Positions 8,040 through 63,809 of a stretch of 64,000 nt of DNA are shown here, one piece after another. The notes beneath the pieces were generated by a model. The model saw nothing but the letters and a program-made list of their open reading frames with translations, was not told the DNA's origin and did not search any database. Where the stretch lies: contig NZ_ARWI01000001.1 in the NCBI RefSeq assembly GCF_000478585.1, positions 434,001 to 498,000 on the forward strand, read 5' to 3'. Numbering within the stretch: the first letter of the stretch is position 1; every line of letters begins with the position of its first letter. The stretch comes from Thiomicrorhabdus sp. Kp2. Lineage in GTDB: Bacteria > Pseudomonadota > Gammaproteobacteria > Thiomicrospirales > Thiomicrospiraceae. A program made the position numbers and the translations under genes.

Positions 8040-8067
8040 ACTAAACTACCAGGCCTGGTAGTTTAGT
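8040..8067. repeat. 28-bp perfect palindrome containing an ACCAGGCCTGGT copy
   Basis: The 12-bp core (8048-8059) is extended on both sides by complementary ACTAAACT/AGTTTAGT to give a 14+14 bp perfect dyad. It sits between the stop of the DUF445 gene and the start of the symporter gene. As RNA it would form a long stem but lacks a strong T-run. Confidence 0.9.
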
Positions 8068-8109
8068 AAAAATAGAACTAGAGAATAGGTTTTAAAGAAA
8101 TCCTAGGGA

Positions 8110-8823
8110 TTAAAGCGGTAACATAAAGAAAAAGGTAGAAACAAACCCAATTAAACCACCAAAGACACCACCCCAAACGACTAACCAGCCAAGGTGTTCT
8201 TTTATCATTTTTTGCACCATCTCTTTAACCAATTGAGGGGTTAACTCTTCTAAACGGCTATCGATGATGTCAGCCACCTTAGATTGAATATCGGCCATCA
8301 CATCAGGCTGATCGAGCTCATCTTGAAGCATCTGATGAAACTCATCGGTTTGTGTCATTTCAATCAATGAACTTTTCATATTCGTTAAAAACGGTTCTTT
8401 TAATGGCGTTAAAGCGTCTGCCCCACCAAACATGCCTAACATAGAGCCAAAAGAGGAGTTCATAATCACTTCAACTAATCGTTCATAAGATGGCGTTAAA
8501 TCGACTTTTTCAATCACAGGTTTGAGTTCAAACTTGGCAGTTTGTACGCTGTTTGCAACAAATTTATCAATATTCTCTTGATTAAAAAATTGCTCCATCA
8601 TTAAGGTTTTAATCGCTGTTTTAAACGCCTCAAAGCGATTAGGAATCACCCCAGAACCTACCAGGCCTGGTACCTTTTCAAATAGCATATATACTGCTAA
8701 CCAGTTGGTTAAAGCACCCGATAAAGCAAATAAACCAATCATGAGCAGATAGGTGTTTTCAACGGCGTAACCTAATATTAAAAAAATGAGTGCCGTTAGG
8801 TTAGTAAGCAGTGACTTATTCAT
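8110..8823 (-). CDS. DUF445 family membrane protein
   Basis: Unknown function. 237 aa with a hydrophobic N-terminal hairpin (about residues 8-45, including LSGALTNWLAVYMLFEKVP, a DUF445-like signature) and a C-terminal membrane segment (about 215-235); the region between is soluble and helical. The start is the ATG at 8823, with GGAG about 8 nt upstream; an in-frame TTG at 8838 is less likely. It is the last gene of the lepA-to-acpS run, 20 bp after acpS, so probably co-transcribed. A perfect ACCAGGCCTGGT copy lies within it and encodes PGLV. Confidence 0.8.
   Translation of the reverse strand: MNKSLLTNLTALIFLILGYAVENTYLLMIGLFALSGALTNWLAVYMLFEKVPGLVGSGVIPNRFEAFKTAIKTLMMEQFFNQENIDKFVANSVQTAKFELKPVIEKVDLTPSYERLVEVIMNSSFGSMLGMFGGADALTPLKEPFLTNMKSSLIEMTQTDEFHQMLQDELDQPDVMADIQSKVADIIDSRLEELTPQLVKEMVQKMIKEHLGWLVVWGGVFGGLIGFVSTFFFMLPL
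8659..8672. repeat. ACCAGGCCTGGT copy inside the DUF445 gene
   Basis: Perfect 12-mer at 8660-8671, with flanking TA extending the dyad to 14 bp. Read as P-G-L-V in the host gene. Confidence 0.95.
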
Positions 8824-8843
8824 GTTAGAAAACTCCAAGATGT

Positions 8844-9230
8844 TTAATCATTATTTTGTTCAGCAACCACAAAGGCAACTGTATGATGCTTTTCATCACT
8901 GATACTAATCGACCAGTGAGTAATGCCAAGTTCATTGGATTTATCAAGGGTAGAACCCGCTAAAAGTAAAATGGGTTGGCCACTCTCTTTGTGAGCTACC
9001 GTCATATCTTTAAAACGCACACCGTGGGCAATCCCTGTACCTAAAGCTTTAGATACCGCTTCTTTTAAAGCCCAACGCTTGGCTAAAAAACGTTCTGGAT
9101 AGAGCTGATTTTTAAACTCTTTTAACTCCATCTCTGACAGCAAACGTTGTGCAAAGGTATCTCCCTGCTTTTTATAAACTTTTTCAATACGTTCAACATC
9201 AACGATATCTGTACCAACACCAATAATCAT
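8844..9230 (-). CDS. acpS: Holo-[acyl-carrier-protein] synthase
   Basis: Transfers the 4'-phosphopantetheine arm from CoA to a serine of apo-ACP, activating it for fatty-acid synthesis in the cytoplasm. Seen: N-terminal IGVGTDIVDVERIE with the magnesium-binding Asp, and RFLAKRWALKEAVSKALGTGI with the conserved Glu/Lys. 128 aa matches the family (about 126). It begins 11 bp after pdxJ, the usual gammaproteobacterial arrangement. Confidence 0.97.
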   Translation of the reverse strand: MIIGVGTDIVDVERIEKVYKKQGDTFAQRLLSEMELKEFKNQLYPERFLAKRWALKEAVSKALGTGIAHGVRFKDMTVAHKESGQPILLLAGSTLDKSNELGITHWSISISDEKHHTVAFVVAEQNND

Positions 9231-9241
9231 AATTAACTCAA

Positions 9242-10102: not shown

Positions 10103-10822
10103 TTAATTAAATAGCTCTCGGGTCATAATTGGTTTATCGCCTAGATAATGCGCCAAAACCCACCGATAGAGTTTCTTTAGTGAAGGTAAGCACTCTTCAC
10201 AATAACGCATCTCTTGCATTGCCAATAAACACTCGCCTTGAATAGCCAATCCCTGCTTTTGAGAATCTAAAGAGGCTAATACAGCGCCATATTGTGGGTA
10301 AAAAAAGTAGGCTTGCTCGGGTTGAATTGGCTGTTGGTTAATATCTTCATCACATTGGATACCATGCCCCATTTCGGCAAGAAATAAATGTTCAAACTGA
10401 CGAAGTGACCAGGCCTGGTCATTGCGTTTTTCAGCGGACAAAAGCTGGTAAAGGGTTTGTTGATAAAGATCAAATAAAGCTTCAGTGGCCACTTGGGGAA
10501 ACAATAAACGATAAAGTAATTCATTAACATATAAACCGCAGATATTGCCCTCTGCCTGTAATGGAAAACGTAATGAGCCCATCTCGATTTGTTGAATACT
10601 GAGTAAGTCTGAACGATTATTGGGTTTTTCACGCCACTGAAGAGTAAGCTGTTGAAAAGGCTGGAGCATAGCCGTTTTTTGAGAAGCGGTTTTGCGCCCA
10701 CCTCTTACCCCACGAACGACACCATTAATTTTGCCGTAGTCAGGGGTAAAAAAGGTCACTAAAGCGCTGGTTTCTCTATAAGGTCGAGAGTGCAGAACAA
10801 ACGCGGACTGTTCTATCTCCAT
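10103..10822 (-). CDS. recO: DNA repair protein RecO
   Basis: Recombination mediator that, with RecR, helps load RecA on SSB-coated single-stranded DNA. Seen: N-terminal OB-fold (AFVLHSRPYRETSALVTFFTPDYG, GVVRGVR), the central helical domain with CGLYVNELLYRLL and the conserved C-terminal LGDKPIMTRELF. 239 aa from the ATG at 10822; a TTG at 10831 is an alternative and neither has a strong ribosome site. It follows era by 17 bp, typical of era-recO. A perfect ACCAGGCCTGGT copy (read D-Q-A-W) lies in the central domain. Confidence 0.95.
   Translation of the reverse strand: MEIEQSAFVLHSRPYRETSALVTFFTPDYGKINGVVRGVRGGRKTASQKTAMLQPFQQLTLQWREKPNNRSDLLSIQQIEMGSLRFPLQAEGNICGLYVNELLYRLLFPQVATEALFDLYQQTLYQLLSAEKRNDQAWSLRQFEHLFLAEMGHGIQCDEDINQQPIQPEQAYFFYPQYGAVLASLDSQKQGLAIQGECLLAMQEMRYCEECLPSLKKLYRWVLAHYLGDKPIMTRELFN
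10407..10420. repeat. ACCAGGCCTGGT copy inside recO
   Basis: Perfect 12-mer at 10408-10419, dyad extended to 14 bp by G/C flanks. Read D-Q-A-W in RecO. Confidence 0.95.
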
Positions 10823-10839
10823 AACAATCAACGACCAAA

Positions 10840-12657: not shown

Positions 12658-12658
12658 A

Positions 12659-21251: not shown

Positions 21252-22139
21252 TTGCAAACTCAACTTCTAACATTTCAAAATCGTGTCAACCAAACCTTAA
21301 AACAGTACATTGCTCATTATTGCGAACAACAACTCGGTGAAACACAGCATTTCTTTGAGGCCGTTGAATATGCCACTCTTAACCAAGGCAAACGACTGCG
21401 CCCCGCCCTAACCTATGCGGTTGCAAAAGCTCTCAATACCCCGTTAGAGCAAGTCGATAGTTGTGCTTGTGCCATTGAATTAATTCATAGTTACTCTCTG
21501 GTACACGATGATTTACCCGCTATGGATAATGATGATCTACGCCGTGGCCAACCAACCTGTCATATTCAATATAATGAAGCCACGGCCATTTTGGTGGGTG
21601 ATGCTCAGCAAACGATGGCTTTTCAAATTCTAAGTGACGATTCTCACCTACAACCAATACACGCACTTGAGATGATTTCCTTATTGAGCAAAGCCAGTGG
21701 CCCACTTGGCATGATTGGTGGACAAGTCTTGGACATAGCGTCTGAAGGCAAAGTCATTACTGCCGATCAACTCAAACAGTTACACAACCATAAAACAGGG
21801 GCTCTTATTCAATGTGCATTGCTCCTAGGAGCCGTTCAATCAACAAACTACGCAGAGATTAAACCAGGCCTGGTAAAACTTGGAGAGCTTATTGGTTTAG
21901 CCTTTCAGGTTCAAGATGATATTTTAGATATTGAAGGTAATACCAAAACCCTTGGCAAGCCTCAAGGTAGTGATTTAGCTTTGGATAAATCAACCTATCC
22001 CAAGTTATTGGGGTTAGCTAATGCAAAAACTTATCGTGATCAATTAATTTCAGAGGCACAAAAAGTATTACAAGAGCTGCCAATCAACAGTCTCTTCTTA
22101 AACCAGTTAATTCATTTCATTGCCGAACGCAAACACTAA
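21252..22139 (+). CDS. ispA: (2E,6E)-farnesyl diphosphate synthase
   Basis: Prenyltransferase condensing DMAPP/GPP with IPP to farnesyl diphosphate. Seen: first aspartate-rich motif DDLPAMDNDDLRRG, GKRLRPAL, and second motif QVQDDILDIEG; 295 aa as in E. coli IspA. The start is a TTG at 21252, with GGAGAG at 21241-21246. No xseB or dxs beside it, unlike the E. coli xseB-ispA-dxs cluster. A perfect ACCAGGCCTGGT copy at 21863-21874 encodes P-G-L-V. Confidence 0.95.
   Translation: MQTQLLTFQNRVNQTLKQYIAHYCEQQLGETQHFFEAVEYATLNQGKRLRPALTYAVAKALNTPLEQVDSCACAIELIHSYSLVHDDLPAMDNDDLRRGQPTCHIQYNEATAILVGDAQQTMAFQILSDDSHLQPIHALEMISLLSKASGPLGMIGGQVLDIASEGKVITADQLKQLHNHKTGALIQCALLLGAVQSTNYAEIKPGLVKLGELIGLAFQVQDDILDIEGNTKTLGKPQGSDLALDKSTYPKLLGLANAKTYRDQLISEAQKVLQELPINSLFLNQLIHFIAERKH
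21863..21874. repeat. ACCAGGCCTGGT copy inside ispA
   Basis: Perfect 12-mer, read P-G-L-V. Confidence 0.95.
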
Positions 22140-24927: not shown

Positions 24928-24966
24928 TAAAAACCCCGTCTACCAGGCCTGGTAGGTGGGGTTTCT
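24928..24966. terminator. Bidirectional terminator formed around an ACCAGGCCTGGT copy
   Basis: The perfect 12-mer (24942-24953) is flanked by AAACCCCGTCT on one side and AGGTGGGGTTT on the other, extending the stem; A- and T-runs on each side allow termination for both ygfZ and lysS. Confidence 0.88.
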
Positions 24967-25002: not shown

Positions 25003-26514
25003 TTAATTCTGACGCATATGCGGGAACAACAGTACATCACGGATAGATGCTGAATCGGTAAAGAGCATCACTAAACGGTCAATACCAATCCCCTCTCCTG
25101 CCGTTGGTGGCATACCGTGCTCTAAAGCCGTAATATAATCTTCATCATAATGCATCGCTTCATCATCACCTGCATCTTTCGCTTCCACTTGCGCTTTAAA
25201 ACGTTCGGCCTGATCTTCTGCATCATTCAACTCGTTAAAACCATTAGCCAACTCGCGTCCACCAATAAACAGTTCAAAACGGTCTGTGATAAATGGGTTT
25301 TGGTCATTACGACGCGCTAACGGTGAAACTTCAGCAGGATACTCAGTAATAAAGGTTGGATCCATTAGTTTTTCTTCAACCGTTTCCTCAAAGATTTCAG
25401 TAACAATCTTACCTAAACCGTAACCTTCTTTAACATGTATCTTAAGCGATTGAGCTAAAGCAGTAGCGGCTTCAATGGTATCAAGCTGATCGGCTGTGAC
25501 ACCGTCATTGTATTGAAGAATTGCATCTTTCATGCTTAAACGTGCAAATGGTTTACCAAAGTCAAACTCTTGTCCTTGATAAGGCACTTTTGTTGACCCC
25601 ACAGCTAACTCAGCAAGCTCTTTTAAAAGCTCTTCAGTGTAATCCATTAACTGATGATAGTCCGTATAAGCCGCATAGAACTCAACCATTGTGAACTCAG
25701 GGTTGTGACGAGTAGATAAGCCTTCATTACGGAAAGAACGGTTAATTTCAAATACGCGTTCAAAACCACCTACAACCAAACGTTTTAAATAAAGCTCTGG
25801 CGCAATACGCAAATACAAAGGCATATCCAACGCATTATGGTGCGTGTTAAAAGGTTTAGCGGTCGCACCACCTGGAATCACATGCATCATTGGCGTTTCT
25901 ACTTCCATAAATTCTTTACGGATTAAGAAGTTACGCACATGCTGAACAATTTTAGAACGCAACATAAAAGTCTCACGACTTTCTTGATTTACAATCAGAT
26001 CAACATAACGCTGACGGTAACGCATCTCTTGGTCTTGTAAACCGTGAAATTTGTCAGGTAATGGGCGAATAGACTTTGTGACTAATTCAATGTGTTCAAC
26101 ATGAATAGAAAGCTCACCTGTATTGGTTTTAAACAGGTATCCTTGAGCACCAACGATATCCCCTAAATCCCATTTTTTAAACTGGGTATTGTAAAAACCT
26201 TCTGGCAGTTCATCACGAGTAACATAAACCTGAATACGCCCTGTTGGATCTTGTAACGTCGCAAAGCTCGCTTTACCCATAATACGACGTAGCATCATAC
26301 GTCCAGCAATCTTTACACGAACAGGCTCTGCTTCGGCCAACTGTTCTTTGCTCATCTCATCATATTTAGCATGTAATTCGGCCGCGTCATTATCACGACG
26401 AAACGTATTTGGATAAGAATGCCCTTCTTCTCTTAGCGCATTAAGTTTGGCGCGACGCTCAGCAATGATTTTGTTTTCATCAACTTCTGGCGCGTTATTT
26501 TGTGTTTCCGACAT
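25003..26514 (-). CDS. lysS: Lysyl-tRNA synthetase, class II
   Basis: Charges tRNA-Lys with lysine. Seen: N-terminal OB-fold anticodon-binding domain ([22 protein letters not shown]), class II motif 2 ([20 protein letters not shown]) and motif 3 ([10 protein letters not shown]). 503 aa is standard. It follows prfB with a 190-bp gap, as prfB-lysS do in E. coli; two tandem palindrome copies sit in that gap just upstream of the start. Confidence 0.98.
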
Positions 26515-26549: not shown

Positions 26550-26585
26550 ACCAGGCCTGGTAATATTAAATTAACCAGGCCTGGT
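26550..26585. repeat. Two tandem ACCAGGCCTGGT copies, 24 bp apart
   Basis: Perfect 12-mers at 26550-26561 and 26574-26585, separated by AATATTAAATTA, 35-70 bp upstream of lysS. Confidence 0.95.
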
Positions 26586-26702: not shown

Positions 26703-27798
26703 TTATACACCCGACTTTAAGCTTGCCACAATAAACTGATCCAAGTCGCCATCTAAGACGCCTTGCGTATTTCCTGACTCTACGCCCGTTCTTAAATCTT
26801 TAATTCGACCCGAATCTAATACATAAGAACGGATTTGACTGCCCCAGCCAATATCAGATTTAGACTCTTCTAACTCTTGTTTATCTGCACTACGACTCAA
26901 CATTTCTAGCTCATACAACTTGGCCCGCAACTGCTTCATGGCTTCCGCTTTGTTTTGATGTTGAGAACGACCATTTTGACATTGGGTAACGGTGTTGGTT
27001 GGTAAATGGGTAATTCGTACTGCCGATTCAGTCTTGTTAACGTGCTGCCCACCCGCTCCACTTGCGCGATAAACATCAATACGCAAGTCGGCTGGGTTAA
27101 TATCAACTTCAAAACTATCGTCAATTTCAGGTGAAATAAACACCGATGCAAAAGAGGTATGACGTTTAGAGTTTGAATCAAAAGGAGACTTGCGCACTAA
27201 ACGATGCACCCCCAATTCAGTTCGTAACCAACCATAAGCATAGTCGCCTTGAATATGAACCGTTGCCCCTTTAATACCCGCTACATCACCCGCAGAAATT
27301 TCTGTAATTTCAGCTTTAAAAGCATGACGATCAGACCAACGTAAATACATTCTAAGAATCATATTCGCCCAGTCTTGAGCTTCTGTACCGCCTGAACCAG
27401 ACTGAATTTCTAAATAAGCATTATTAGCATCCAGTTCACCTGAGAACATTCTTTGAAATTCCAGCTTATCTAAACGTTCACCTAAACGATCCAATTCCAA
27501 AATAACTTCATCAACCATCTCTTGGTCAGAATCCATTTCAGCCATCTCTAGCAATTCTTTGGCTGACTCCGTACCTGATGTTAAATCATCAATAGTCGAT
27601 ACAATGTTTTCTAATTGCGATTTTTCTTTACCCAACGCCTGAGCGTCTTGAGGTTTATTCCAGATATCTGGGTCTTCTAGTTCTTTAGAAACTTCTTCTA
27701 AACGTTCCGCCTTAACATCATAGTCAAAGATACCCCCTAAGAACGTCACTGCGTTCTTGGTAGTCTTGAATTCGGTTATAAACAGGATTTAATTCCAT
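26703..27798 (-). CDS. prfB: Peptide chain release factor 2, with programmed +1 frameshift
   Basis: Recognises UGA and UAA and triggers peptide release. The frame-0 part starts at the ATG at 27798 and encodes 24 residues ([11 protein letters not shown]...) ending in CTT, then in-frame TGA at 27726-27724. The internal Shine-Dalgarno AGGGGG (27738-27733) lies 3 nt before CTT-TGA-C, as in E. coli; a +1 shift skips base 27726 and continues with GAC. Total 364 aa. Seen: SPF tripeptide ([10 protein letters not shown]), catalytic GGQ in [16 protein letters not shown]. Synthesis is thus autoregulated by RF2 level. Upstream of lysS. Confidence 0.97.
27723..27738 (-). promoter_or_regulatory. RF2 programmed frameshift site
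   Basis: AGGGGG, TAT, CTT, TGA, C: internal Shine-Dalgarno, 3-nt spacer, slippery CTT and an in-frame stop with the unfavourable C after it. Confidence 0.97.
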
Positions 27799-29585: not shown

Positions 29586-31721
29586 CTAACCATTATTATG
29601 ACTAATCGAGTCCGACTTCTCAAGACTTTTAACAATTAATACAATTTTTTGTAGGGTTTTTTCAGTTTTTTTCAACCTCTGCTGTTTATTTAATTCTTGG
29701 CACAAGGCTTTTTCTTGGATTGTCTCCAGCTCTTTAAACAGAGTTACCAGGCCTGTTAATTGAAAAAGCATGCAGTTGCCTTTTAAATAATGAGCCAGTT
29801 TTTTAATCTCTTCTGCTTCATTTTGTAAATTATACCGACAAAGCTTTTCAAAACCAGAAATTGTCTCTTTCATAAAAGAGTCAAACAAGTGGTGAAATTG
29901 CTCAGGAATATCGTGCAGTGTATGTAAAGTGAGTTCGTCATTCACTTGCTGTGAACGTTGAAGAGAATCATCCTGTTCACTGACGTTTTTCCAAGCGGTT
30001 TCTTTCTCGGAAAAGGGTGTTTTTTCTTGGGTTGATTGACGATAGTTTTTATCAAGTAAACTAATAATTTGGTTTTTTCCAACGGGTTTCACCAACCACT
30101 TATCAAACCCTAATCCCTCGTGATTCTCATTTTCACCCACAAATCCCGAAGAGTCGCCACCTGCCGTAATAGCAAAAACCCCTTTTAAAGTTGGCGTCTG
30201 ACCTTTTTCATACAGTTGCTGTATGTTCTGACTTACTTGTAATCCATCCATAAACGGCATTTGAATATCAAGCAAGACATAATCAAAACTTTCTTGTTGA
30301 AATAACGCCCATGCCTCACGTCCATCTTTAGCTTCAAACACCTCACAATCTAATTCAGCTAAATACCCCGCCAATACCATACGATTAATTTTAGAATCAT
30401 CTGCAATCAATACCTTGTAGTGTTGCTCTAAAGGAGACAACGCCGTCTCTTCATCCTCTTTTTCAAGCAAATTTTCTGAGTAATAAACCGAACTGGTCTT
30501 GATGAGTTCACCTTTTTTTAACTTGGCTGAGGCGATGCTTGGTGAATGACTCTTTAATATGCAGGGAAGTTGCAAGCAAAATTCAAAAGAAGTACCAACC
30601 CCCACAGAAGACTTTACCTGTATAGAGCCCTGCATTAATTCAACCAATTGTTTAACCACAAATAGACCTAAACCTGCGCCTAGGTAGGTCGTATTACTCG
30701 TGTATTCACCATCACTGGCTTCAAGCTGTGCAAAGGGTTCAAAAATTCTTTGTAATCTATTCTCTGGAATACCTTCACCAGAATCGGTAATTTTAAAAAC
30801 AAAAACACCGTCTTCTTTTTCATTTACTTCAATATTTACCCCACCATACTGAGTAAACTTAATGCCATTAACAATGAGGTTAATGAGTATTTGAGTTAAA
30901 CGTACACCATCGGCCAAAACATACTCATGCTTGCCTAAATAGACCAAAGAAATTACTAGGTTTTTATCAGAGCCAATTGACTTAGTTAGCTGCTTAACAT
31001 TCTCTAAAAGTTCGGTTAATGAGACTTCTGTTGGATGAAGAGTTATGCCGTCATACTCTGTTTGCGAATAGGTCAAAATATCATTAACAAGATAAGTAGA
31101 TTGCTCCGCCGTCATATGAATCGTTTTGAGCATATTGAGTGTTTCAGGTGACGCATCCACCTCATTTCTCAAACGCTTAACGAGGCTACTAATACCTAAA
31201 AGAGGTGAACGTAATTCATGGCTTAACATCGCTAAAAAACGCGATTGTTTAATATAAGAATCATGTACAAAACGGTTTTGCTCTTCGATGTGTTGTTCAC
31301 GCTCAACGACTTGTTGAAGAGATAAACGTCCTTGTGCATCAACCATCTCACGCTCTAAAGCGGCCATTTCAGAAACATCAATACAGCTTGCCCAAACCAT
31401 TTTCACACCGTTAAGCTCTAATACCCGCAATTGATGTTGTAAAGTTCTTTTACCTTTAACAGTTTGATAACTTGCCACAAATCGCATATCAAAATCACTT
31501 GATTGCGTTCTTTTCGACGCCAAAGCACCTTCAATTTTCAGCCTCAATAACTGGGTTTCATACTCTCCCATCATCTCTTCAATAGTCACGACTTGACGGC
31601 CTAAATAAGCTTTAAACGCTTCAGAAAGATTCAGAACCTCTTTATCCCCCTCCTTGGCATAGGTCCACCATAGATTTTTATGAAACATTTCATTGGCTAA
31701 TATCGTTTGCGGAATACTCAT
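29586..31721 (-). CDS. Hybrid sensor histidine kinase (HisKA-HATPase-REC-HPt)
   Basis: 711 aa, no membrane segment, so a cytoplasmic sensor. Seen in order: N-terminal PAS-like region (about 10-125) with no identifiable cofactor motif, short coiled coil (125-160), HisKA with phospho-His168 in MLSHELRSPLLG, HATPase with N box NLIVNGIKFT and G boxes DSGEGIP and GAGLGL, receiver with Asp485 (LLDIQMPFMDG), and HPt with His644 (LAHYLKGNC). This layout supports a four-step His-Asp-His-Asp relay ending on the adjacent NarL-type regulator. Signal unknown. Confidence 0.93.
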   Translation of the reverse strand: MSIPQTILANEMFHKNLWWTYAKEGDKEVLNLSEAFKAYLGRQVVTIEEMMGEYETQLLRLKIEGALASKRTQSSDFDMRFVASYQTVKGKRTLQHQLRVLELNGVKMVWASCIDVSEMAALEREMVDAQGRLSLQQVVEREQHIEEQNRFVHDSYIKQSRFLAMLSHELRSPLLGISSLVKRLRNEVDASPETLNMLKTIHMTAEQSTYLVNDILTYSQTEYDGITLHPTEVSLTELLENVKQLTKSIGSDKNLVISLVYLGKHEYVLADGVRLTQILINLIVNGIKFTQYGGVNIEVNEKEDGVFVFKITDSGEGIPENRLQRIFEPFAQLEASDGEYTSNTTYLGAGLGLFVVKQLVELMQGSIQVKSSVGVGTSFEFCLQLPCILKSHSPSIASAKLKKGELIKTSSVYYSENLLEKEDEETALSPLEQHYKVLIADDSKINRMVLAGYLAELDCEVFEAKDGREAWALFQQESFDYVLLDIQMPFMDGLQVSQNIQQLYEKGQTPTLKGVFAITAGGDSSGFVGENENHEGLGFDKWLVKPVGKNQIISLLDKNYRQSTQEKTPFSEKETAWKNVSEQDDSLQRSQQVNDELTLHTLHDIPEQFHHLFDSFMKETISGFEKLCRYNLQNEAEEIKKLAHYLKGNCMLFQLTGLVTLFKELETIQEKALCQELNKQQRLKKTEKTLQKIVLIVKSLEKSDSISHNNG
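29746..29755. repeat. One-mismatch palindrome copy in the hybrid kinase gene
   Basis: ACCAGGCCTGTT with one changed position; read T-G-L-V in the HPt region. Confidence 0.7.
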
Positions 31722-34794: not shown

Positions 34795-34863
34795 TGTAAA
34801 CTTTTTTCAATGTGGCCAGCGTTAATTAAAAACGCTTTATACATCGAATCATATAGTGAGTAG

Positions 34864-35190: not shown

Positions 35191-35194
35191 AAGC

Positions 35195-37009: not shown

Positions 37010-37259
37010 AAAATTACTCTTTGCTGATTGGCAAAGAAAAGTAAAGATTCTTACGATATTTGCCAGAATTGAATTGAGCGGGTAGCTTACCTTATGAGCC
37101 CCGATAAAGCCATACAAAGCCGCTACAATACCTTGTATTATTCCCAAACCTTATTACTTTAAAACAGACTTTACCAGGCCTAGTAAGTCTTAATTTTGAT
37201 TAACCTGTACTCTATAGCAAGGTACGCTATGCTAGAATCTTGATATTATTTAACCAATA
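37010..37259. other. Intergenic region between rhlE and the MITE-like element
   Basis: No gene seen. Contains a one-mismatch palindrome copy (37173-37184, ACCAGGCCTAGT) and then the MITE-like element. Confidence 0.5.
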
Positions 37260-37374
37260 GAGACCTTTGCACGAGTCGATGAACATATAAAAACGGCTAT
37301 AATCCTCTATCTTCAGGCTAAAAAATTCTATCTCGTTTTTCTTACGTACCTGACTCGTGCAAAGGTCTCCAATA
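37255..37374. mobile_element. MITE-like element with 18-bp perfect terminal inverted repeats
   Basis: GAGACCTTTGCACGAGTC at 37260-37277 and its exact inverse at 37352-37369 bound a 110-bp element with no reading frame. Both ends are flanked by CAATA (37255-37259, 37370-37374), a likely 5-bp target duplication. GAGACCTTTGCA-type ends recall IS5-family elements (my recollection), so a transposase-less derivative moved in trans is the best reading. It ends 10 bp before the next gene and carries a TATAAT at 37298-37303. Confidence 0.8.
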
Positions 37375-37384
37375 GAAGAAATTT

Positions 37385-37843
37385 ATGAAAATATGGGTTG
37401 ATGCCGATGCTTGTCCAGCCGTAATAAAAGAGACCATATTCAGAGCCGCAACTCGAACACAAACCTTAACGACCTTAGTTGCCAATCACACTATGCGAAT
37501 ACCCCCCTCTCCCTGGATAAAATTTCAGCAAGTACAATCTGGCTTTGATGTGGCGGATAACAAGATTGTTGAACAACTGAATGCAGGCGATTTAGTCATT
37601 AGTAGCGACATCCCTCTGGCTGCCGAAGCGATTGAAAAAGGCGCTATTGTATTAAGCCCTAGAGGAGAATTATATACAGTGGCCAATATTCGAGCTCGAC
37701 TGAATATGCGAGATTTTATGGAATCTTTACGCAGTACAGGAGTCGATATTGGTGGCCCAAATGCTTTAAATCAAGCCGATCGGCAGGCTTTTGCTAATCA
37801 GCTTGATAAATATTTGACCCAAAACAAACCGCCAAAGACTTAA
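37385..37843 (+). CDS. YaiI/YqxD family protein (DUF188)
   Basis: Function unknown; 152 aa, normal for the family. Seen: the N-terminal [22 protein letters not shown] with conserved Asp residues of a PIN-like fold, [23 protein letters not shown] and the conserved [10 protein letters not shown]. The MITE-like element lies directly upstream and may have altered its promoter. Confidence 0.9.
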
Positions 37844-38668: not shown

Positions 38669-39601
38669 TTATAACCAGGCAGCTCCTCTAACACCGCTAG
38701 CGTCGCCATGCATTGGTGGAGCCAGCTTGGTATTCACCTCATCACTAAATACCCATTTATGCCAAATTTGGGGTACATCAACATATAATCTTTGTACATT
38801 AGACATACCACCACCCAAAACAATCACATCTGGGTCTAATACATTGATGACACTCGCCAAACCTTTTGCCAACCAAACGGTGTAATCAGCCAGCATTTGT
38901 TCAGCGTGTAAATCCCCCTGTTGAGCCAATGCCACAATTTCCTGAGCCGTTATTTGTTTATTTGTACGTAAAGCAAAATGTGCTTGCAAACCACTGCCCG
39001 ACAAAAAGGTCTCATTACAGCCTTGTAAACCGCAATAACAATCCATTGCCGTATCATCCGATGCCATCCACGGTAAAGGATTATGCCCCCACTCTCCGCC
39101 AATGGCATTAATACCATTCAGAACGTTTCCGTTAATGACAACACCACCACCGCAGCCTGTACCAATAATAACGCCAAAAACCGAATCTACACCCTGGGCA
39201 GCCCCATCAGAAGCTTCTGATAACGCAAAACAATTAGCATCATTCGCTAACTTAACAGGTCTGGTTAAAGCCCTTTGTAAATCACCCTGCAAGTCTTTAT
39301 CAATCAAGCAAACCGAATTTGCGTTTTTGATTCGACCTGTTTTAGAGGAAATCGCTCCTGGGATGCCTACTCCTACCAGGCCTGGTAAAAATTTTTTGTA
39401 TTCTTTAGCAAGCGCTTGTTCTGCATTAAGCACTAAGTCACTCACCGCTCTAACCGTGGCTAAATAGTCACCTTGAGGTGTAGCGATACGTTTTTGATAA
39501 ATAATTTTAGAAACTTTTGGCATCGAGCTTTTAGAAACAAATAAACCGATTATTTCAATTTTTGTACCGCCTAAATCAATACCAAACCGAATTTCGCCCA
39601 T
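38669..39601 (-). CDS. ROK-family sugar kinase
   Basis: ATP-dependent hexose kinase, fructokinase (Mak)-like. Seen: FGIDLGGTKIE phosphate-binding motif, GVGIPGAIS, GTGCGGGVVING, EWGHNPLPW and the ROK zinc motif CYCGLQGCNE. 310 aa is normal. Substrate is probably fructose, glucose or N-acetylglucosamine; the sequence alone does not settle it. A perfect ACCAGGCCTGGT copy encodes P-G-L-V near residue 74. Confidence 0.88.
   Translation of the reverse strand: MGEIRFGIDLGGTKIEIIGLFVSKSSMPKVSKIIYQKRIATPQGDYLATVRAVSDLVLNAEQALAKEYKKFLPGLVGVGIPGAISSKTGRIKNANSVCLIDKDLQGDLQRALTRPVKLANDANCFALSEASDGAAQGVDSVFGVIIGTGCGGGVVINGNVLNGINAIGGEWGHNPLPWMASDDTAMDCYCGLQGCNETFLSGSGLQAHFALRTNKQITAQEIVALAQQGDLHAEQMLADYTVWLAKGLASVINVLDPDVIVLGGGMSNVQRLYVDVPQIWHKWVFSDEVNTKLAPPMHGDASGVRGAAWL
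39375..39386. repeat. ACCAGGCCTGGT copy inside the ROK kinase gene
   Basis: Perfect 12-mer, read L-P-G-L-V-G. Confidence 0.95.
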
Positions 39602-39621: not shown

Positions 39622-40305
39622 TTATTCTTCAGTCAGTTTTCTTAAATAGATTGTAAAATCATTTTCTAGATAGCCTTCAATCAAAACGACCTCATCGACA
39701 AAACTCGCACAAAAATGCTCTATCTCATTCGGTAAAAAACTCTGTAAGTCAAAACGACTTTTTACCCACGCATTTTGGCTATTTAATAAATTAAAGGCGA
39801 CCCCTTTCTTACAAATTTTATACATCGCCATAATGACCGATTTAGCGTAGTTTCCTTGAAATTCAGCAGTGCCTTCAATTTCTGTTTCAACAACCTCATT
39901 TAAAGCACCCGATAGAAAAACATAATCAAATTGATTATCCGTAAAGCCTAATTCAGATAATTCACCCTCTAAAATAGTCTTCTGAGGATGCATTGATTGC
40001 GCACCACGCACCATATCAGGCGAAACATCGATTCCTGTATAGTCTGGAAAGTAATTATTACGTTCTAAATAGCCCACTAAATCTGCAAAACCGCAACCCA
40101 CATCTAATAATGACCAGGCCTGGTGTTTGAGTGTTTTGGGAGAAGGTAAGATTTCTATGAGTTTTTGAAAACGAATTTCTTGTATTTCACGACTGCTCCA
40201 ATACAACGCTTGAGGTTGATATCCATACCGTTCTACTGAAACTTTATGACGGGTTTGAATTCGTAAACGTTGTTTTTTTGAAAGACGTAATAATGAATCT
40301 TGCAT
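39622..40305 (-). CDS. SAM-dependent methyltransferase, class I
   Basis: 227 aa. Seen: SAM-binding motif I LLDVGCGFADLVGYL, YTGIDVSPDMV (motif II acidic residue) and FDYVFLSGAL (motif IV). Substrate unknown. Preferred start is the ATG at 40305; a GTG at 40320 is possible. It follows the DUF455 gene by 47 bp, possibly co-transcribed. A perfect palindrome copy encodes H-Q-A-W just before motif I. Confidence 0.82.
   Translation of the reverse strand: MQDSLLRLSKKQRLRIQTRHKVSVERYGYQPQALYWSSREIQEIRFQKLIEILPSPKTLKHQAWSLLDVGCGFADLVGYLERNNYFPDYTGIDVSPDMVRGAQSMHPQKTILEGELSELGFTDNQFDYVFLSGALNEVVETEIEGTAEFQGNYAKSVIMAMYKICKKGVAFNLLNSQNAWVKSRFDLQSFLPNEIEHFCASFVDEVVLIEGYLENDFTIYLRKLTEE
40113..40124. repeat. 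ACCAGGCCTGGT copy inside the methyltransferase gene
   Basis: Perfect 12-mer, read H-Q-A-W. Confidence 0.95.
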
Positions 40306-40352
40306 AAAATGATTGCTCACTGAATAAAGCTAAAATGCATTAGTAAAATGCA

Positions 40353-42318: not shown

Positions 42319-42356
42319 TAAAAAAAACCAGGCAAAGTCATTTGACCAGGCCTGGT
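42319..42356. terminator. Hairpin using an ACCAGGCCTGGT copy after greA
   Basis: AACCAGGC near 42327 can pair with GCCTGGTT (42350-42357), which is the right half of a perfect 12-mer at 42345-42356. On the minus strand a TTTTTTT tail follows, fitting termination of greA. Confidence 0.7.
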
Positions 42357-42903: not shown

Positions 42904-42939
42904 AACGCCAAAGCCTAATTTAAATTAGACTTTGGCGTT
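42904..42939 (-). terminator. Terminator between carB and greA
   Basis: AACGCCAAAG with CTTTGGCGTT, extended by CTAATTT/AAATTAG inside: a long near-perfect stem, followed by TTTTACG on the minus strand. Confidence 0.88.
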
Positions 42940-50909: not shown

Positions 50910-50921
50910 ACCAGGCCTGGT
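50910..50921. repeat. ACCAGGCCTGGT copy upstream of the NlpC/P60 gene
   Basis: Perfect 12-mer, extended to TTACCAGGCCTGGTAA (16 bp). Confidence 0.95.
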
Positions 50922-51109: not shown

Positions 51110-52447
51110 ATGAGAAGACCACAAATTTACAAAATCTCTTTTTCAAAGTGGCTTATTGCCTTTCTACTCCCTTTTACACTGAGTTTACAAAGCTGCGCTA
51201 AGGAGCCAGAAATGACCAATCAAAATGAAACGGTTAACAGTACCATTGAAAGTAAATCGATTGTTTTAGGCATGGGTTGTTTTTGGGGAGCCGAAAAACG
51301 ACTTTCTGAAGTAAACGGTGTTATTGATGTCGAAAGTGGCTACGCAGGTGGCGATGATATAAATGCAGGCTATCAAGATGTACTCGGTTTGGAACAACGG
51401 ATTCAAATGGGACTTTCTACAAAACGCAATCATGCCGAAGTGATTAAAGTTACCTACAATCCATCCATGGTTGAGCTAAAAACCATCTTGATTAAGTTTT
51501 GGGAAAACCATAACCCTACGCAAGGTAATCGCCAAGGTAACGATGTGGGTACCAATTACCGAAGTGCCATTTATTATCAAACTGATGATGAAAAATCGCT
51601 GGCTGAAGAGACCAAAAAAGTGTATCAACAAGCCTTGAGCAAGGCTGGCAAACCTGAAATTACCACTGAAATTGCGCCATTGAAGAACTACATTTCCGCA
51701 GAAGAATACCACCAAGACTATCTACAGAAAAACCCAAACGGCTACTGTGGACTTGGCGGAACAGGCGTTGCTTATCCTGGGTCAGAAACCAAAACACATC
51801 CTAGACTGGAGGCCAGCAGCTTGAATAAAGAAAGACAATTGATTGTCTTTGAAGCGGAAGACTGTCCTTATTGTGAGAAATTTAAAAAAGACATCCTAAA
51901 CACTTGGAAAGCAGAAACACCCATTATTGCTACTCTTAACCCGCAAGCACCAGAGAGCTGGAAACTACAAAAAGCACTGTTTGCCACACCAACGATTGTG
52001 CTCTTTGAAAATGGAAAAGAGGTCTCACGTTACACAGGGTATAACGGTGATAAAAGTCGTTTTTGGAAATGGTTAGGTTTTAGATTGCTAACACCTGAAC
52101 AAAGAAAAATCGCCTTTGAAGAAGGTACTGAAATGCCCTTTACAGGTTCACATCTCGATGAAACCAGGCCTGGTTACTTTGTTGACCCAATTACTGGCGC
52201 CAACCTTTTTAGAAGTGATACCAAATTCAAAAGCGGTACTGGCTGGCCAAGCTTCTTTAATCCAGTAGAAGGAGCAATCACTGAACATACTGATAATAGC
52301 CTTGGCATGTCTAGAGTGGAAGTACGTAGTGCCAGCTCAGGCATCCACTTAGGGCACGTATTCAACGATGGCCCTGCTCCAACTTATAAACGCTATTGCA
52401 TTAATGGTAATGTTTTAAAATTTGTACCTGATGAACCTACCAAATAA
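51110..52447 (+). CDS. MsrA-thioredoxin-MsrB fusion lipoprotein (methionine sulfoxide reductase)
   Basis: Repairs both stereoisomers of methionine sulfoxide in envelope proteins. Seen: lipoprotein-like signal LSLQSC (Cys29); MsrA domain with catalytic Cys57 in GMGCFWGAEK; thioredoxin-like domain (about 240-325) with CPYC at 252-255 and cis-Pro in ATPTIVLF; MsrB domain (about 325-440) with catalytic Cys430 in RYCING and GWPSFF. Two oddities: the MsrA loop normally reading CSGxTGHAE is here LGLEQRIQMGLSTKRNHAE, about eight residues longer, and MsrB lacks the first zinc-type cysteines. The central position of the thioredoxin domain differs from neisserial PilB (thioredoxin first). Confidence 0.92.
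   Translation: MRRPQIYKISFSKWLIAFLLPFTLSLQSCAKEPEMTNQNETVNSTIESKSIVLGMGCFWGAEKRLSEVNGVIDVESGYAGGDDINAGYQDVLGLEQRIQMGLSTKRNHAEVIKVTYNPSMVELKTILIKFWENHNPTQGNRQGNDVGTNYRSAIYYQTDDEKSLAEETKKVYQQALSKAGKPEITTEIAPLKNYISAEEYHQDYLQKNPNGYCGLGGTGVAYPGSETKTHPRLEASSLNKERQLIVFEAEDCPYCEKFKKDILNTWKAETPIIATLNPQAPESWKLQKALFATPTIVLFENGKEVSRYTGYNGDKSRFWKWLGFRLLTPEQRKIAFEEGTEMPFTGSHLDETRPGYFVDPITGANLFRSDTKFKSGTGWPSFFNPVEGAITEHTDNSLGMSRVEVRSASSGIHLGHVFNDGPAPTYKRYCINGNVLKFVPDEPTK
52163..52174. repeat. ACCAGGCCTGGT copy inside the msrA/B fusion gene
   Basis: Perfect 12-mer, read T-R-P-G in the MsrB start region, a third reading frame of the palindrome. Confidence 0.95.
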
Positions 52448-52955: not shown

Positions 52956-52967
52956 ACCAGGCCTGGT
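52956..52967. repeat. ACCAGGCCTGGT copy between dapB and the lysine-rich gene
   Basis: Perfect 12-mer, extended to TTACCAGGCCTGGTAA. Confidence 0.95.
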
Positions 52968-55168: not shown

Positions 55169-55181
55169 TATCAGGCCTGGT
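55169..55181. repeat. One-mismatch palindrome copy before dnaJ
   Basis: TCAGGCCTGGTAA: one changed base in the left half. Confidence 0.7.
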
Positions 55182-57581: not shown

Positions 57582-58166
57582 TTACTGGGCCACAATTACA
57601 CGTGCCGCACGCACTAAACGTTCATTTAGCGTATAACCTTTTTGAATCGTATCAACCACCGTATTGCTTTCATGGTCTGGTGATGGAATCATGGTTAAGG
57701 CTTCATGCAAGTTAGGGTCAAACTTCTCACCCGTTGGGTTGACACGCTCAACATTAAATTCTTGCAGAACATCAAGCATCTGCTTAAACGTCATCTCAAC
57801 CCCTTCACGAATACTCTCTAAAGTCGCCTCTTCTTTAGAAGCGGCATCAATTCCCATCTCCATAGAATCCATGGCAGGTAATAATGCGTTTACAAATTTT
57901 TCTAATGCATACTTATGTGCGCTTTCCACATCAATACGAGTACGACGGCGTAGGTTTTCCATGTCTGCCTGTACTCGCATTGCCAAATCTTTATGCTTTT
58001 CCGCTTCCGCTTGTGCCTCTGCTAATAAAGCCGCAATATCTTCTTGAACTGCTTCTTGTGCATTTTCTAATGCTTCATCCGCTTGCTGAGCCGCATCTTC
58101 CGCTGTTTGGGCTTCAACGTTTTCTACATTTGCGTCATCATTCATTTTTTGCTCTTTTTCAGACAT
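57582..58166 (-). CDS. grpE: Nucleotide exchange factor GrpE
   Basis: Releases ADP from DnaK. Seen: acidic, coiled-coil N-terminal half (about residues 30-90), AMRVQADMENLRRRTRIDVE and the beta domain with NPTGEKFDPNLHEALTMIP and VVDTIQKGYTLNERLVRAARVIVAQ. 194 aa from the ATG at 58166 with TGGAGATACCC upstream. A sigma-32-like promoter lies just upstream; first gene of the grpE-dnaK-dnaJ group. Confidence 0.97.
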   Translation of the reverse strand: MSEKEQKMNDDANVENVEAQTAEDAAQQADEALENAQEAVQEDIAALLAEAQAEAEKHKDLAMRVQADMENLRRRTRIDVESAHKYALEKFVNALLPAMDSMEMGIDAASKEEATLESIREGVEMTFKQMLDVLQEFNVERVNPTGEKFDPNLHEALTMIPSPDHESNTVVDTIQKGYTLNERLVRAARVIVAQ

Positions 58167-58200
58167 GGGTATCTCCAGTAAATTTCTAGTCGGGGGATTT

Positions 58201-58227
58201 ATAAGGGATAGTTTTGGGTAATTCAAG
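58201..58227 (-). promoter_or_regulatory. Sigma-32 (heat shock)-type promoter of grpE
   Basis: On the minus strand CTTGAA (58227-58222), 13 bp, TCCCTTAT (58208-58201) compared with CTTGAA-N11-16-CCCCATNT. Predicted start about 30 nt before the ATG. Confidence 0.65.
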
Positions 58228-58257: not shown

Positions 58258-58269
58258 ACCAGGCCTGGT
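58258..58269. repeat. ACCAGGCCTGGT copy between grpE and the GGDEF gene
   Basis: Perfect 12-mer, extended to TTACCAGGCCTGGTAA, about 30 bp upstream of the heat-shock promoter. Confidence 0.95.
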
Positions 58270-58372: not shown

Positions 58373-59725
58373 ATGAATATACTTATTGTCGATCCATCCA
58401 ACAGTTATCGTAATGTTATCAAGCTCACTTTAAGTAATGAAGATACACAAATCACCGAGGCCACTAAGGGAAGCGATGCTTTAGCTTATTTAAAAAAACA
58501 CACTCCTTCTGCCATTTGTATAGCACATGAACTTGGAGACATGGACAGTTTTACATTTCTAAAAGAACTAAAGTCCAACAAAATCTTAAGCAACACGCCC
58601 AAATTTTTACTCACCTCAAATCATTCGCCCGATTTTAAACGCCAAGCCTACGACGCTGGCTTTACCGAAGTATTTATTAAATCCGATTTTCCAACGCTAA
58701 AACGTGCGCTGCATAGCTTAATGCTTTATGCCACACTTAACATATCCGCTCGTGTTCTTTATGTAGAAGACACCCAAAGCACCGCAGACTTTACCAGCCA
58801 TATTATGCAATCGGCAGGCTGGAAAGTGACACACGTTAAAAGTGGCGAAGAAGCCGCCGAAATTTTAGATAAAACTAAAGCATCGTTCGATATCGTCGTA
58901 ACAGACTTGGTTTTAGAAGGTGAAGTCAGTGGCATTGGTCTAATCAACCTAATTCGTCAAGGCAATGAACGCATACGCGACATTCCTATTCTGGCCGTAT
59001 CAGGGTGGAACGATTTATTACGCCAAGTGTATGTGCTTAAACACGGTGCGGGCGACTTTATTGCCAAACCCTTTAATGAAACCGACTTTTTAGCACGAGC
59101 CATTAACCTCATTATGAGCAAACGGGCACGCGACGAACTATTAGATCAACAAGCTGCACTCTACCAAAAAGTAAATATCGATTCGCTAACAGGCATTAAT
59201 AACCGCCACTTTTTAGATGAGTATGGCGAAAATCTAGTCAGATCAGCACTCACTAAAAATGAATCGATTGCCTTGATGTTATTAGACATTGATCAATTCA
59301 AAGAGATTAACGACAAAACGGGACACTCTGCTGGCGATACCATACTCAAAACCGTTGCTTCGATTCTAAAAAACAATGGCCATGCAAACGACATCATTGC
59401 CCGCTATGGTGGTGACGAATTTGTTGTCATTATTAAAGACTTAAACAATCAAGAAGTCCTACAACGAGCCGAAACCATTCGCCAACAAGTAGCAGAAGCC
59501 AAGCCATTAGGTATTGCAGTAACCTGCTCTATCGGGCTAGCCTGTCATGATAAAAAAATTGCATTACAACTGGTCGAACTACTAGAAAACCTCAATCAAA
59601 ACCCAGAAAACATAGAACTAAACTACCAAACTCTATTTAAAGCCGCTGACCACTCTCTATACGCCGCTAAAAAAGCTGGACGCAATCAAGTCTGTATAAA
59701 CAACCTGCTTGAAGCAGAGCAATAA
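58373..59725 (+). CDS. Diguanylate cyclase with two receiver domains (REC-REC-GGDEF)
   Basis: Makes cyclic di-GMP, controlled by phosphorylation. Seen: first receiver-like domain (1-120) where the phospho-acceptor position aligns with Ala51, so it is probably unphosphorylated; second receiver (127-245) with Asp178 (VVTDLVLEG) and Lys in FIAKPF; GGDEF domain (270-445) with intact active site RYGGDEF (346-350). The usual inhibitory RxxD five residues upstream reads HAND, so product inhibition may be lost. PleD-like layout in 450 aa. Single gene, no kinase beside it. Confidence 0.92.
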   Translation: MNILIVDPSNSYRNVIKLTLSNEDTQITEATKGSDALAYLKKHTPSAICIAHELGDMDSFTFLKELKSNKILSNTPKFLLTSNHSPDFKRQAYDAGFTEVFIKSDFPTLKRALHSLMLYATLNISARVLYVEDTQSTADFTSHIMQSAGWKVTHVKSGEEAAEILDKTKASFDIVVTDLVLEGEVSGIGLINLIRQGNERIRDIPILAVSGWNDLLRQVYVLKHGAGDFIAKPFNETDFLARAINLIMSKRARDELLDQQAALYQKVNIDSLTGINNRHFLDEYGENLVRSALTKNESIALMLLDIDQFKEINDKTGHSAGDTILKTVASILKNNGHANDIIARYGGDEFVVIIKDLNNQEVLQRAETIRQQVAEAKPLGIAVTCSIGLACHDKKIALQLVELLENLNQNPENIELNYQTLFKAADHSLYAAKKAGRNQVCINNLLEAEQ

Positions 59726-59758: not shown

Positions 59759-59770
59759 ACCAGGCCTGGT
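59759..59770. repeat. ACCAGGCCTGGT copy after the GGDEF gene
   Basis: Perfect 12-mer in the gap between the convergent GGDEF and hrcA genes. Confidence 0.95.
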
Positions 59771-61035: not shown

Positions 61036-61097
61036 GGTCTTAGAGAATATTTAATTACGTCTTGAGCTTAGCTGAGATTACATACGAGTTAACAAAC

Positions 61098-61973: not shown

Positions 61974-62070
61974 GCTGCTCCAATGCCTTCTTTTATAAGC
62001 TTTATTGGCATAACAATTAATGGTTTTTGCATTTGCACTTTTTCCGATATAATCGCAAGCAACCTAAACA

Positions 62071-62107
62071 ACCAGGCCTGGTAAATTATAAAAACACCAG
62101 GCCTGGT
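62071..62107. repeat. Two tandem ACCAGGCCTGGT copies, 25 bp apart
   Basis: Perfect 12-mers at 62071-62082 and 62096-62107 in the nadK-recN gap, 32 bp before recN. Confidence 0.95.
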
Positions 62108-62138
62108 AAAACCCATAATGTGAAATAAAACGCCGACT

Positions 62139-63809
62139 ATGCTGCAAGAACTCTCTATTCAAAACCTCGCCCTAATTGAAAAACTTCAACTGCAATTTAA
62201 TAGCGGTTTTACCACGTTAACGGGTGAAACGGGTGCGGGTAAATCTATTTTATTAGACGCTTTAGGTTTGGCCTTGGGCGAACGTGCCGACAGCTCTTTG
62301 GTTCGCCATAACACACCCAAAGCTGACGTAACCGCCCTATTTGAAATTGAAAAATTACCGCACGTACAAAACTGGATGCAAGAACAAGAGTTAGATGATG
62401 AAACCGCTTGTTATTTACGCCGTACCGTTACCTCTGAAGGGCGATCAAAAGCCTATATTAATGGCTATCCTGTGGCGGCCAATCAGCTTAAAACCTTAGG
62501 TAGTTTTTTAATCGATATTCATGGTCAACATGAACACCAAACCTTATTATCGGGCAATAAACAGCTAGATTTATTGGATGCTTACGCCAACCATCCAAAA
62601 AACTTAGCTCAAACTCAACACGCCTTTAAAGCGTGGCAAGAGGTGAAACGCAAGCTCAAGCAACTTGAAGAAGAACAGGCTGATTACCAAAGTAAGCTTG
62701 AATTGCTAAGTTTTCAAAAAAATGAGTTTGATGAAATTAATCCGCAAGAGGGTGAGTTTGAAACGCTATCTGAAGAACAGAGCCAGCTTTCACACGCCAG
62801 TGAAATCAAACTGGCTTGCGAAAAAGCCTATGTGGTAATTGAAGAAGAACAAGGTGCGGTGGATTCATTAAATCAAGCGATTCACGCTTTAGAAAGCATT
62901 GTTGAATTTAGCCCAAGTTTAGAAAGTTTAATTACCCAGCTGAATAGTAGTGTCATAGAGGTGCAAGAAGCGGCCACTGAAATTCAGCACCACGCAGAAC
63001 ACATTGAGTTAGATCCGCAACAACTACAAAACGTTGAAGAGCGTTTATCTGCCCTATTTGGTATTGCTAAAAAGTACAATATTGAAGCCGAACAACTGGT
63101 TGAAAAACAGCAACAAATACAGAGTGATTTAGAGCGTTTAGAACAGTCAGACGCCTCTTTAGAAACCTTAAAAATCGCACTTAACCAGGCCTGGTTAGAT
63201 TACCAAGAACAAGCCAATTTACTCAAAAAATCACGCCAAAAAGCGGCTAAAAACCTATCAAAAATTGTCACTGAAGGTATGCAAACATTAGGCATGCCCA
63301 ATGGTCTGTTTGAGGTAGCGTTAAGTGATGCTGAACAACCTAATGCCAATGGTACAGATAAAGTCATTTTTAATGTCACTGCCAACAAAGGCCAACCCTT
63401 ACAACCGCTGGCTAAAGTGGCATCGGGTGGCGAGTTATCACGTATTAGTTTGGCGATTCAGGTTGCTACATCAGAAGTCGCTCAACTGCCAACGCTTATT
63501 TTTGATGAGGTCGATGTGGGTATTGGTGGCGGCATTGCCGAAGTGGTTGGGCAAAAAATGCAACAACTGGGTAAAGACAAACAGATATTTTCGATTACTC
63601 ACTTGGCACAAGTGGCCTCTCATGGACACAGTCATTTACATATTGCCAAACAGACACTTAATGATTCCACCACCACAGAGGTTAAAAAACTAAGCTCAGA
63701 ACAAAGGGTGGAAGAGTTAGCGAGAATGCTTGGAGGCCTAACGCTTACCGAGCAAACCTTAAATCACGCTAAAGAGATGTTAGAGGTTGCACAAAGTAAA
63801 ACCGATTAA
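62139..63809 (+). CDS. recN: DNA repair protein RecN
   Basis: SMC-like ATPase in double-strand break repair. Seen: LQELSIQNLALIEKLQLQFNSGFTTLTGETGAGKS with Walker A, DIHGQHEHQTLL, long central coiled coils (about 150-360), signature VASGGELSRISLAIQ, Walker B TLIFDEVDVGIGG and the D-loop region SITHLAQVASHG. 556 aa is normal. No LexA box was identified upstream, though the promoter may precede nadK. A perfect palindrome copy (read L-N-Q-A-W) lies in the coiled coil. Confidence 0.96.
   Translation: MLQELSIQNLALIEKLQLQFNSGFTTLTGETGAGKSILLDALGLALGERADSSLVRHNTPKADVTALFEIEKLPHVQNWMQEQELDDETACYLRRTVTSEGRSKAYINGYPVAANQLKTLGSFLIDIHGQHEHQTLLSGNKQLDLLDAYANHPKNLAQTQHAFKAWQEVKRKLKQLEEEQADYQSKLELLSFQKNEFDEINPQEGEFETLSEEQSQLSHASEIKLACEKAYVVIEEEQGAVDSLNQAIHALESIVEFSPSLESLITQLNSSVIEVQEAATEIQHHAEHIELDPQQLQNVEERLSALFGIAKKYNIEAEQLVEKQQQIQSDLERLEQSDASLETLKIALNQAWLDYQEQANLLKKSRQKAAKNLSKIVTEGMQTLGMPNGLFEVALSDAEQPNANGTDKVIFNVTANKGQPLQPLAKVASGGELSRISLAIQVATSEVAQLPTLIFDEVDVGIGGGIAEVVGQKMQQLGKDKQIFSITHLAQVASHGHSHLHIAKQTLNDSTTTEVKKLSSEQRVEELARMLGGLTLTEQTLNHAKEMLEVAQSKTD
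63184..63195. repeat. ACCAGGCCTGGT copy inside recN
   Basis: Perfect 12-mer, read N-Q-A-W in the coiled coil. Confidence 0.95.

Follow-up and report, generated by a model that had tools for sequence, protein, structure and literature searches.

Strong uptake preferences have been stated for species of two bacterial families, the Pasteurellaceae and the Neisseriaceae, in the accessible text of a 2020 paper (PMC7811141). According to the accessible parts of PMC3630211 and PMC2397512, the DNA uptake sequences (DUS) of the Neisseriaceae occur in hundreds to thousands of copies, with a constant core and with dialects that follow the phylogeny. They include intergenic sites and close inverted pairs, which in DUS lie at terminators, they are conserved by selection or drive, and their placement in the core genome is permissive. 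In the uptake signal sequences (USS) of the Pasteurellaceae a short inner core is crucial and the outer bases are weaker; the flanks are AT-rich and the spread is genome-wide (PMC7811141, same text). A repeat of another kind is the cyanobacterial highly iterated palindrome HIP1 (GCGATCGC), which has lineage variants and deviations biased to its ends (PMC4390886, accessible part). A palindromic 12-mer, ACCAGGCCTGGT, that resembles DUS, USS and HIP1 in these respects is found in Thiomicrorhabdus sp. Kp2, in a window of 64 kb (the whole stretch analysed, positions 434001-498000 of contig NZ_ARWI01000001.1), and in many members of its family, the Thiomicrospiraceae. The 12-mer is probably the local dialect of a DNA-uptake sequence, a reading that is weighed below against its rivals.

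The window carries 18 perfect copies of ACCAGGCCTGGT, all of them at the places given in the initial annotation, which had also called the motif massively over-represented. At up to one mismatch there are 22 matches in the window, whereas 100 dinucleotide shuffles gave a mean of 0.13 and a maximum of 2. The annotation had counted about ten one-mismatch copies; the actual number is four, at 4340..4351 (AACAGGCCTGGT), 29746..29757 (ACCAGGCCTGTT), 37173..37184 (ACCAGGCCTAGT) and 55170..55181. Five other positions placed in this class (5776, 11885, 17160, 32806 and 35630) have the inner 8-mer CAGGCCTG intact and differ from the 12-mer at two bases. In the single-contig genome of 2,725,706 bp (G000, contig C1) the 12-mer occurs 557 times, compared with 1.4 copies expected from a fourth-order Markov model scaled to the genome and 0 copies of a reversed control word, so the signal is neither near expectation nor confined to the window. 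The inner 8-mer occurs 1133 times in the genome and 27 times in the window.

Further properties were obtained from a 464-kb sample of this genome, which consists of the window and 20 stretches of 20 kb. The sample holds 106 perfect copies, a density of one per 4.9 kb, with one core per 2.4 kb. The core is nearly all-or-none, with 190 copies of CAGGCCTG, while none of the 15 remaining NAGGCCTN words exceeds 11. There are 49 one-mismatch copies, and 44 of these deviate at the two outermost half-site positions. An A before and a T after the core had been described as invariant; this is true of all 18 window copies and does not extend to the genome, where 106 of the 133 copies of CCAGGCCTGG in the sample are full 12-mers. 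The longer TTA...TAA extension is preferred, without being a strict rule. The copies are spread evenly along the chromosome, since the 20 stretches average 4.4 copies and fit a Poisson distribution (dispersion p = 0.31). This even spread makes an origin, terminus or segregation signal confined to part of the chromosome unlikely. It also makes the sparseness reported for the first 8 kb and for 27-39 kb of the window unremarkable, and both regions hold inexact core sites.

The motif is widespread within the family and is spelt differently by lineage. By our own threshold, 35 of 62 family genomes are tag-bearing, that is, they have more than 200 copies of CAGGCCTG, of the G024 10-mer or of an asymmetric 12-mer. 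These are 18 of the 32 genomes of the window's genus (own genome included), 7 of the 11 in g6, all 9 in g5, and G033. In the 27 tag-less genomes the core count never exceeds 67; four of them, from g28, may be mildly enriched, with 35-67 core copies versus 7-31 of the reversed control. Outside the family, 21 genomes of the same class, each from a different family, contain ACCAGGCCTGGT once at most. Stretches with two nearby copies in the genome collection number 39, with 37 from Thiomicrospira, Thiomicrorhabdus or Hydrogenovibrio records and 2 from one gammaproteobacterial metagenome-assembled genome.

Five dialects share the GGCC centre. Apart from the own genome, the ACCAGGCCTGGT dialect is used by G019 (718 copies), G016 (498), G022 (488), G009 (454), G015 (446), G028 (333) and others. 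The AACAGGCCTGTT dialect, in which the outer bases are loose, occurs in G018 (114), G005 (101), G002 (42), G007 (32) and G026 (23). The AGCAGGCCTGCT dialect is the consensus of 37 sampled core sites in G008, where the outer bases reach 65-66%. The 10-mer ACCGGCCGGT is present 1025 times in G024 and 0 times in the own genome. The fifth dialect, AACAGGCCGGGT, is asymmetric; it occurs 482 times in G021 (242 forward, 240 reverse) and 275 times in G004 (137 and 138), and its extended form AAAAAACTCAACAGGCCGGGT is non-palindromic. A strand bias of this dialect, suspected on contig 1 of G021 beyond 97 kb, was rejected since the sequence has both strands there.

No palindromic dialect was seen among other over-represented words in 12 tag-less genomes sampled at 60-120 kb each (G014, G025, G003, G013, G031), 40 kb each (G020, G027, G011) or 5-20 kb (G012, G017, G032, G034). 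Further dialects may be present among the remaining 15 tag-less genomes. Two tag-less genomes related to G024, G013 and G025, each contain ACCGGCCGGT 15 times (reversed controls 3 and 2), possibly as decaying remnants, and some other genomes have 12-14 copies versus 8-10 of the reversed controls. G025 (L104, L105, L244, L249-L251) also contains the repeated words AGGTCGTCAACA (8 copies) and GGGTCTACCGAC (6 copies) in 120 kb, which are either another family of repeats or a single local repeat.

The sites are conserved above the level of their flanks. In the relatives G022, G015, G016 and G009 the mean flank identity is 0.69-0.74, and 4 to 12 of the 18 window sites are comparable per relative. 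Identical aligned 12-mers were found at 8 of 12 sites in G022, compared with 0.93 expected from flank-matched controls. The corresponding values are 3 of 5 in G015 (0.19 expected), 3 of 4 in G016 (0.28) and 4 of 7 in G009 (0.27).

The dialects also follow the phylogeny. A carB protein tree was built for 34 genomes by a quick method, with support from the Shimodaira-Hasegawa-like approximate likelihood ratio test only; on it, six states require 7 changes, compared with a mean of 16.2 when shuffled. The 13 tag-less genomes in the tree need 4 changes. Therefore, the spelling is inherited, and the tag was either lost repeatedly or regained. The asymmetric pair G021/G004 is sister to three AAC genomes (support 85). 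Each of the four outgroup genomes was given the ACC label, G033 and G036 with genome-wide counts of the exact 12-mer (289 and 400), G061 (a GCC variant, 4 sites sampled) and G075 (looser) without such a count.

Respelling is visible at a single orthologous spacer. Five gene boundaries around carB were inspected in 21 genomes, with the gene names confirmed by Pfam. The dnaJ-dnaK spacer was found in 20 of these and has a site in 11, located 49-95 bp from dnaJ; all 11 are among the 16 tag-bearing genomes, and the 4 tag-less ones have none. The site reproduces the local dialect exactly in G019, G028 and G033 (ACC), in G008 (AGCAGGCCTGCT), in G018 (AACAGGCCTGTT) and in G021, where it reads ACCCGGCCTGTT, which is the asymmetric form in reverse. 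The match is approximate in G000 (the one-mismatch copy at 55170), G009, G005, G026 and G061. No site was found in the spacers of G022, G015, G016, G024, G075 and the four tag-less genomes. The outer bases of this spacer's site thus shift by lineage, and because it holds both the asymmetric and the palindromic form, the two are linked as one system. A site lies downstream of greA in 7 of the 21 genomes and at the dnaK-grpE boundary in four tag-bearing genomes, where the tag-less G014 has a bare core only. The remaining two boundaries have no site in the 21 genomes.

With genes called by a longest-ORF (open reading frame) rule, 48 of the 106 sites in the 464-kb sample are intergenic, in 12.5% of the bases, and 58 are coding. 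By type of gap, there are 15 sites in 9.0 kb of convergent, 5 in 15.3 kb of divergent and 28 in 30.3 kb of co-directional intergenic DNA. The coding sites favour two of the three frames (PGLV 33, QAW 19, TRPG 6). The flanks read AAnTT on both sides, which puts the outer AT pairs about ten bases, or one helical turn, from the centre. The sample has five close pairs (60 bp or less), all 24-25 bp apart, and at named loci chosen for close pairs 11 of 40 pairs are exactly 24 apart. Such a pair is two 22-bp extended sites side by side. The two close pairs in the G021 sample are both of opposed orientation and fold as hairpins. Six pair or single-site stretches that we selected fold more stably than their shuffles (z -4.3 to -10.4).

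Based on these comparisons, the reading that we moderately favour is that of a family-wide self-recognition tag, a DNA-uptake sequence, for which the 12-mer would be the spelling used by this lineage, Thiomicrorhabdus sensu lato. The initial annotation had offered this idea beside two others, a methylase-linked signature and a nucleoid or segregation protein. It is the best supported of the three by the dialects, the conservation, the placement and the AT flanks; no receptor was found. Only slightly better than even, in our estimate, are the chances that the sulphur-oxidising Thiomicrospiraceae have independently evolved a third uptake-sequence system. Its tag would mostly be a full palindrome that a receptor, perhaps a dimeric one, reads symmetrically; it would have at least five dialects, one of them now asymmetric, and would have been lost repeatedly in sister lineages. 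In Simonsiella, 1294 DUS occurrences lie in overlapping dyad pairs and the authors considered dimer-based recognition, according to the accessible part of PMC3630211.

Uptake, a receptor and transformation drive are what we infer here. A competence DNA receptor, probably on a type IV pilus, would read the GGCC-centred core (CAGGCCTG in most members) and also the outer bases that vary by lineage, and AT tracts one helical turn away may ease bending of the DNA. Tagged DNA would be preferentially imported and recombined, so that tags would accumulate and would persist at permissive places. A change in the receptor could then drag the whole tag set to a new dialect. The competence gene comEC is present in 33 of the 35 tag-bearing genomes.

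Several results weigh against an uptake sequence. The gene comEC is also present in 23 of the 27 tag-less genomes and hence does not discriminate. PF16732 (ComP_DUS), the family of the known DUS receptor, was above the cut-off in 0 of 62 genomes, by a search that is weak since 0 of 14 control genomes matched; its one match below the cut-off is in the tag-less G020. PF12019 (GspH) was found in 3 of 62 genomes, all tag-less (G011, G020, G027), by a search that is also weak since it missed the own genome, although L088 holds pseudopilin-like ORFs there. Pilins diverge fast, and profile searches are weak for them. A prepilin-like pattern search of the 464-kb sample gave five ORFs, four of which cluster in L088 behind a GspD-like secretin, a group that looks like a type II secretion cluster.

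Other points on the same side concern the motif itself. Its palindromy is explained by a homodimeric DNA-binding protein no less well than by a pilin. Unlike DUS, the tag usually forms a complete palindrome centred on GGCC, and no ComP_DUS match above the cut-off accompanies it. In DUS the one-mismatch copies outnumber the perfect ones, whereas here perfect copies prevail by 106:49, and the tag density is below that of DUS (for DUS, the accessible part of PMC3630211). USS differ in being non-palindromic (available text of PMC12616744) and unrelated in sequence, and that text gives their receptor only as a prediction. The aligned core is kept or lost at 11 and 5 sites in G022, 7 and 2 in G015, 9 and 2 in G016, and 9 and 3 in G009. 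The 33 core sites in co-directional gaps divide 17 to 16, without favouring gene 3' ends. The close pairs are unusual in their spacing but not in their number (5 vs 4.1 expected). In the sample, the longest site-free gap has Tn7-like genes at its start and is of a length within chance, and other long site-free gaps are housekeeping genes. Since 1.7 gaps of that length are expected, the longest gap says little about whether tags are rarer in recently acquired DNA. The genes at its start (L081:681-5653, about 1,000,681-1,005,653 of the own genome) encode TnsA-like, Mu-transposase C-terminal, TniB and TniQ proteins.

A methylase-linked origin deserves consideration because deviations in HIP1, an iterated GC-rich palindrome with lineage variants, are concentrated at the ends (accessible text of PMC4390886), and those seen here are terminal too. 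On this reading a methyltransferase would create the palindromes and keep them, together with repair or recombination directed by methylation, an origin already put forward for GCGATCGC. According to the available part of Elhai's paper, no HIP genome lacks a matching methylase. Here the two families tested are not linked to the tag: of the 35 tag-bearing genomes, 11 match PF00145 (m5C methylase), 14 match PF01555 (N4/N6 methylase) and 15 match neither, 13 of these 15 being at least 99% complete; the 27 tag-less genomes include 13 with PF00145 and 10 with PF01555. With no correlation across the 62 genomes, maintenance of the tag by a methylase of these families was rejected. The Dcm CCWGG signature is found in the window's dialect only and is missing from AACAGGCCTGTT, AGCAGGCCTGCT, ACCGGCCGGT and AACAGGCCGGGT, and the last of these, the G021/G004 dialect, is non-palindromic. 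The Dcm/EcoRII or HIP1-like explanation first proposed for the motif thus finds no support in the dialects or in the survey of the two gene families, and a HIP1-like signature is quite unlikely. A dispersed binding site for a dimeric protein, nucleoid-associated or a global regulator, with a role in organising the chromosome is also unlikely, if less so. The palindrome, the helically phased AT flanks, the abutting sites at 24-25 bp, the even spread and the strong conservation are all in its favour. Even spacing speaks only against the form of this idea in which the signal is limited to part of the chromosome. However, lineage-wise respelling of hundreds of sites, the asymmetric form included, would be hard for an essential role, and 27 of the 62 family members have no clear enrichment.

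The hairpin potential of the selected stretches and the excess of sites in convergent over divergent gaps suggest an RNA-level element, either a terminator or an mRNA-stability hairpin spread by selection. This is very improbable, since 58 of the 106 sites are coding, the close pairs make up just 5 of 169 neighbour spacings without excess over chance, and 3' ends are not preferred in co-directional gaps. In addition, a terminator needs no single exact 8-mer core. Copies in the hundreds would also be produced by transposition of a mobile short repeat, similar to miniature inverted-repeat transposable elements or repetitive extragenic palindromes. This explanation is scarcely credible, since the sequence conservation ends at about 22 bp, copies lie in frame within conserved genes, and orthologous sites are retained and respelt. 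A link to phages was rejected; the 14-mer TACCAGGCCTGGTA occurs in 36 viral stretches from 36 contigs, at one place each.

The sites in the window are placed as follows. The copy at 8048..8059 is intergenic, between the ORFs 7086-8009 and 8110-8838, and the next (8660..8671) lies within the second of these, a DUF445 ORF (-). Further coding copies are located at 10408..10419 in a recO-like ORF (10103-10831, -) and at 21863..21874 in a polyprenyl synthetase ORF (21252-22139, +), where G022 retains the core. The copy at 24942..24953 stands at the head of a hairpin that resembles a terminator and has T-rich DNA after it; G022 does not keep this copy. A close pair 24 bp apart (26550..26561 and 26574..26585), between a release-factor ORF (26703-27749, -) and a class II tRNA synthetase ORF (25003-26514, -), is kept in G022, G015, G016 and G009. 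The same four relatives keep the site at 39375..39386 in a ROK-family ORF (38669-39601, -), which G008 does not, and the core of the site at 40113..40124 in a Methyltransf_11 ORF (39622-40320, -), where G008 and G026 keep the core with different outer bases.

In the second half of the window, the copy at 42345..42356 lies 3' of greA, and that at 50910..50921 is intergenic. The copy at 52163..52174, within a PMSR-SelR fusion ORF (51110-52447, +), is present in G022 and lost in G016 and G009; another (52956..52967) lies between the convergent PMSR-SelR and dapB ORFs. The copy at 58258..58269 is intergenic, between grpE (57582-58226) and a GGDEF ORF (58373-59725), and the one at 59759..59770 is between convergent ORFs. 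The second close pair (62071..62082 and 62096..62107, 25 bp apart) precedes an SMC_N/AAA_23 ORF (62139-63809, +). This ORF contains the last copy, at 63184..63195, where G008 has AGCAGGCCTGGT. DUS are enriched in DNA-repair genes. Possible genes of this type with tags in the window are the recO-like ORF (10408) and the SMC_N/AAA_23 ORF, which has tags both within and before it (62071-63195).

The window has three other repeat structures. A 117-bp unit is present in three tandem copies at 34857-35207 (91% and 78% identity to the first). An inverted repeat at 37237-37392, upstream of a DEAD-box helicase ORF, has 41-nt arms (73% complementary) with 74 nt between them. A near-perfect palindrome at 42904-42939, in the greA-carB interval, is unrelated to the tag.

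The 12-mer was not found in the open literature searched, where no paper joined Thiomicrospira with an uptake sequence or Thiomicrorhabdus with natural competence. Wider searches gave no report of it among the titles listed; with subscription journals mostly uncovered, an earlier report may exist. A term check of the available part of a Hydrogenovibrio genome paper (PMC6501319) gave nothing on the tag. If uptake fails as an explanation, the motif may be a HIP1 counterpart that lacks the customary methylases, and it would be no easier to explain. If the tag is an uptake sequence, the origin of such sequences could be studied comparatively in a third, unrelated family, whose members are autotrophs and differ in dialect, in loss of the tag and in palindromic or asymmetric spelling. 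Such a family would also point to a new receptor and would extend DNA self-recognition beyond host-associated bacteria.

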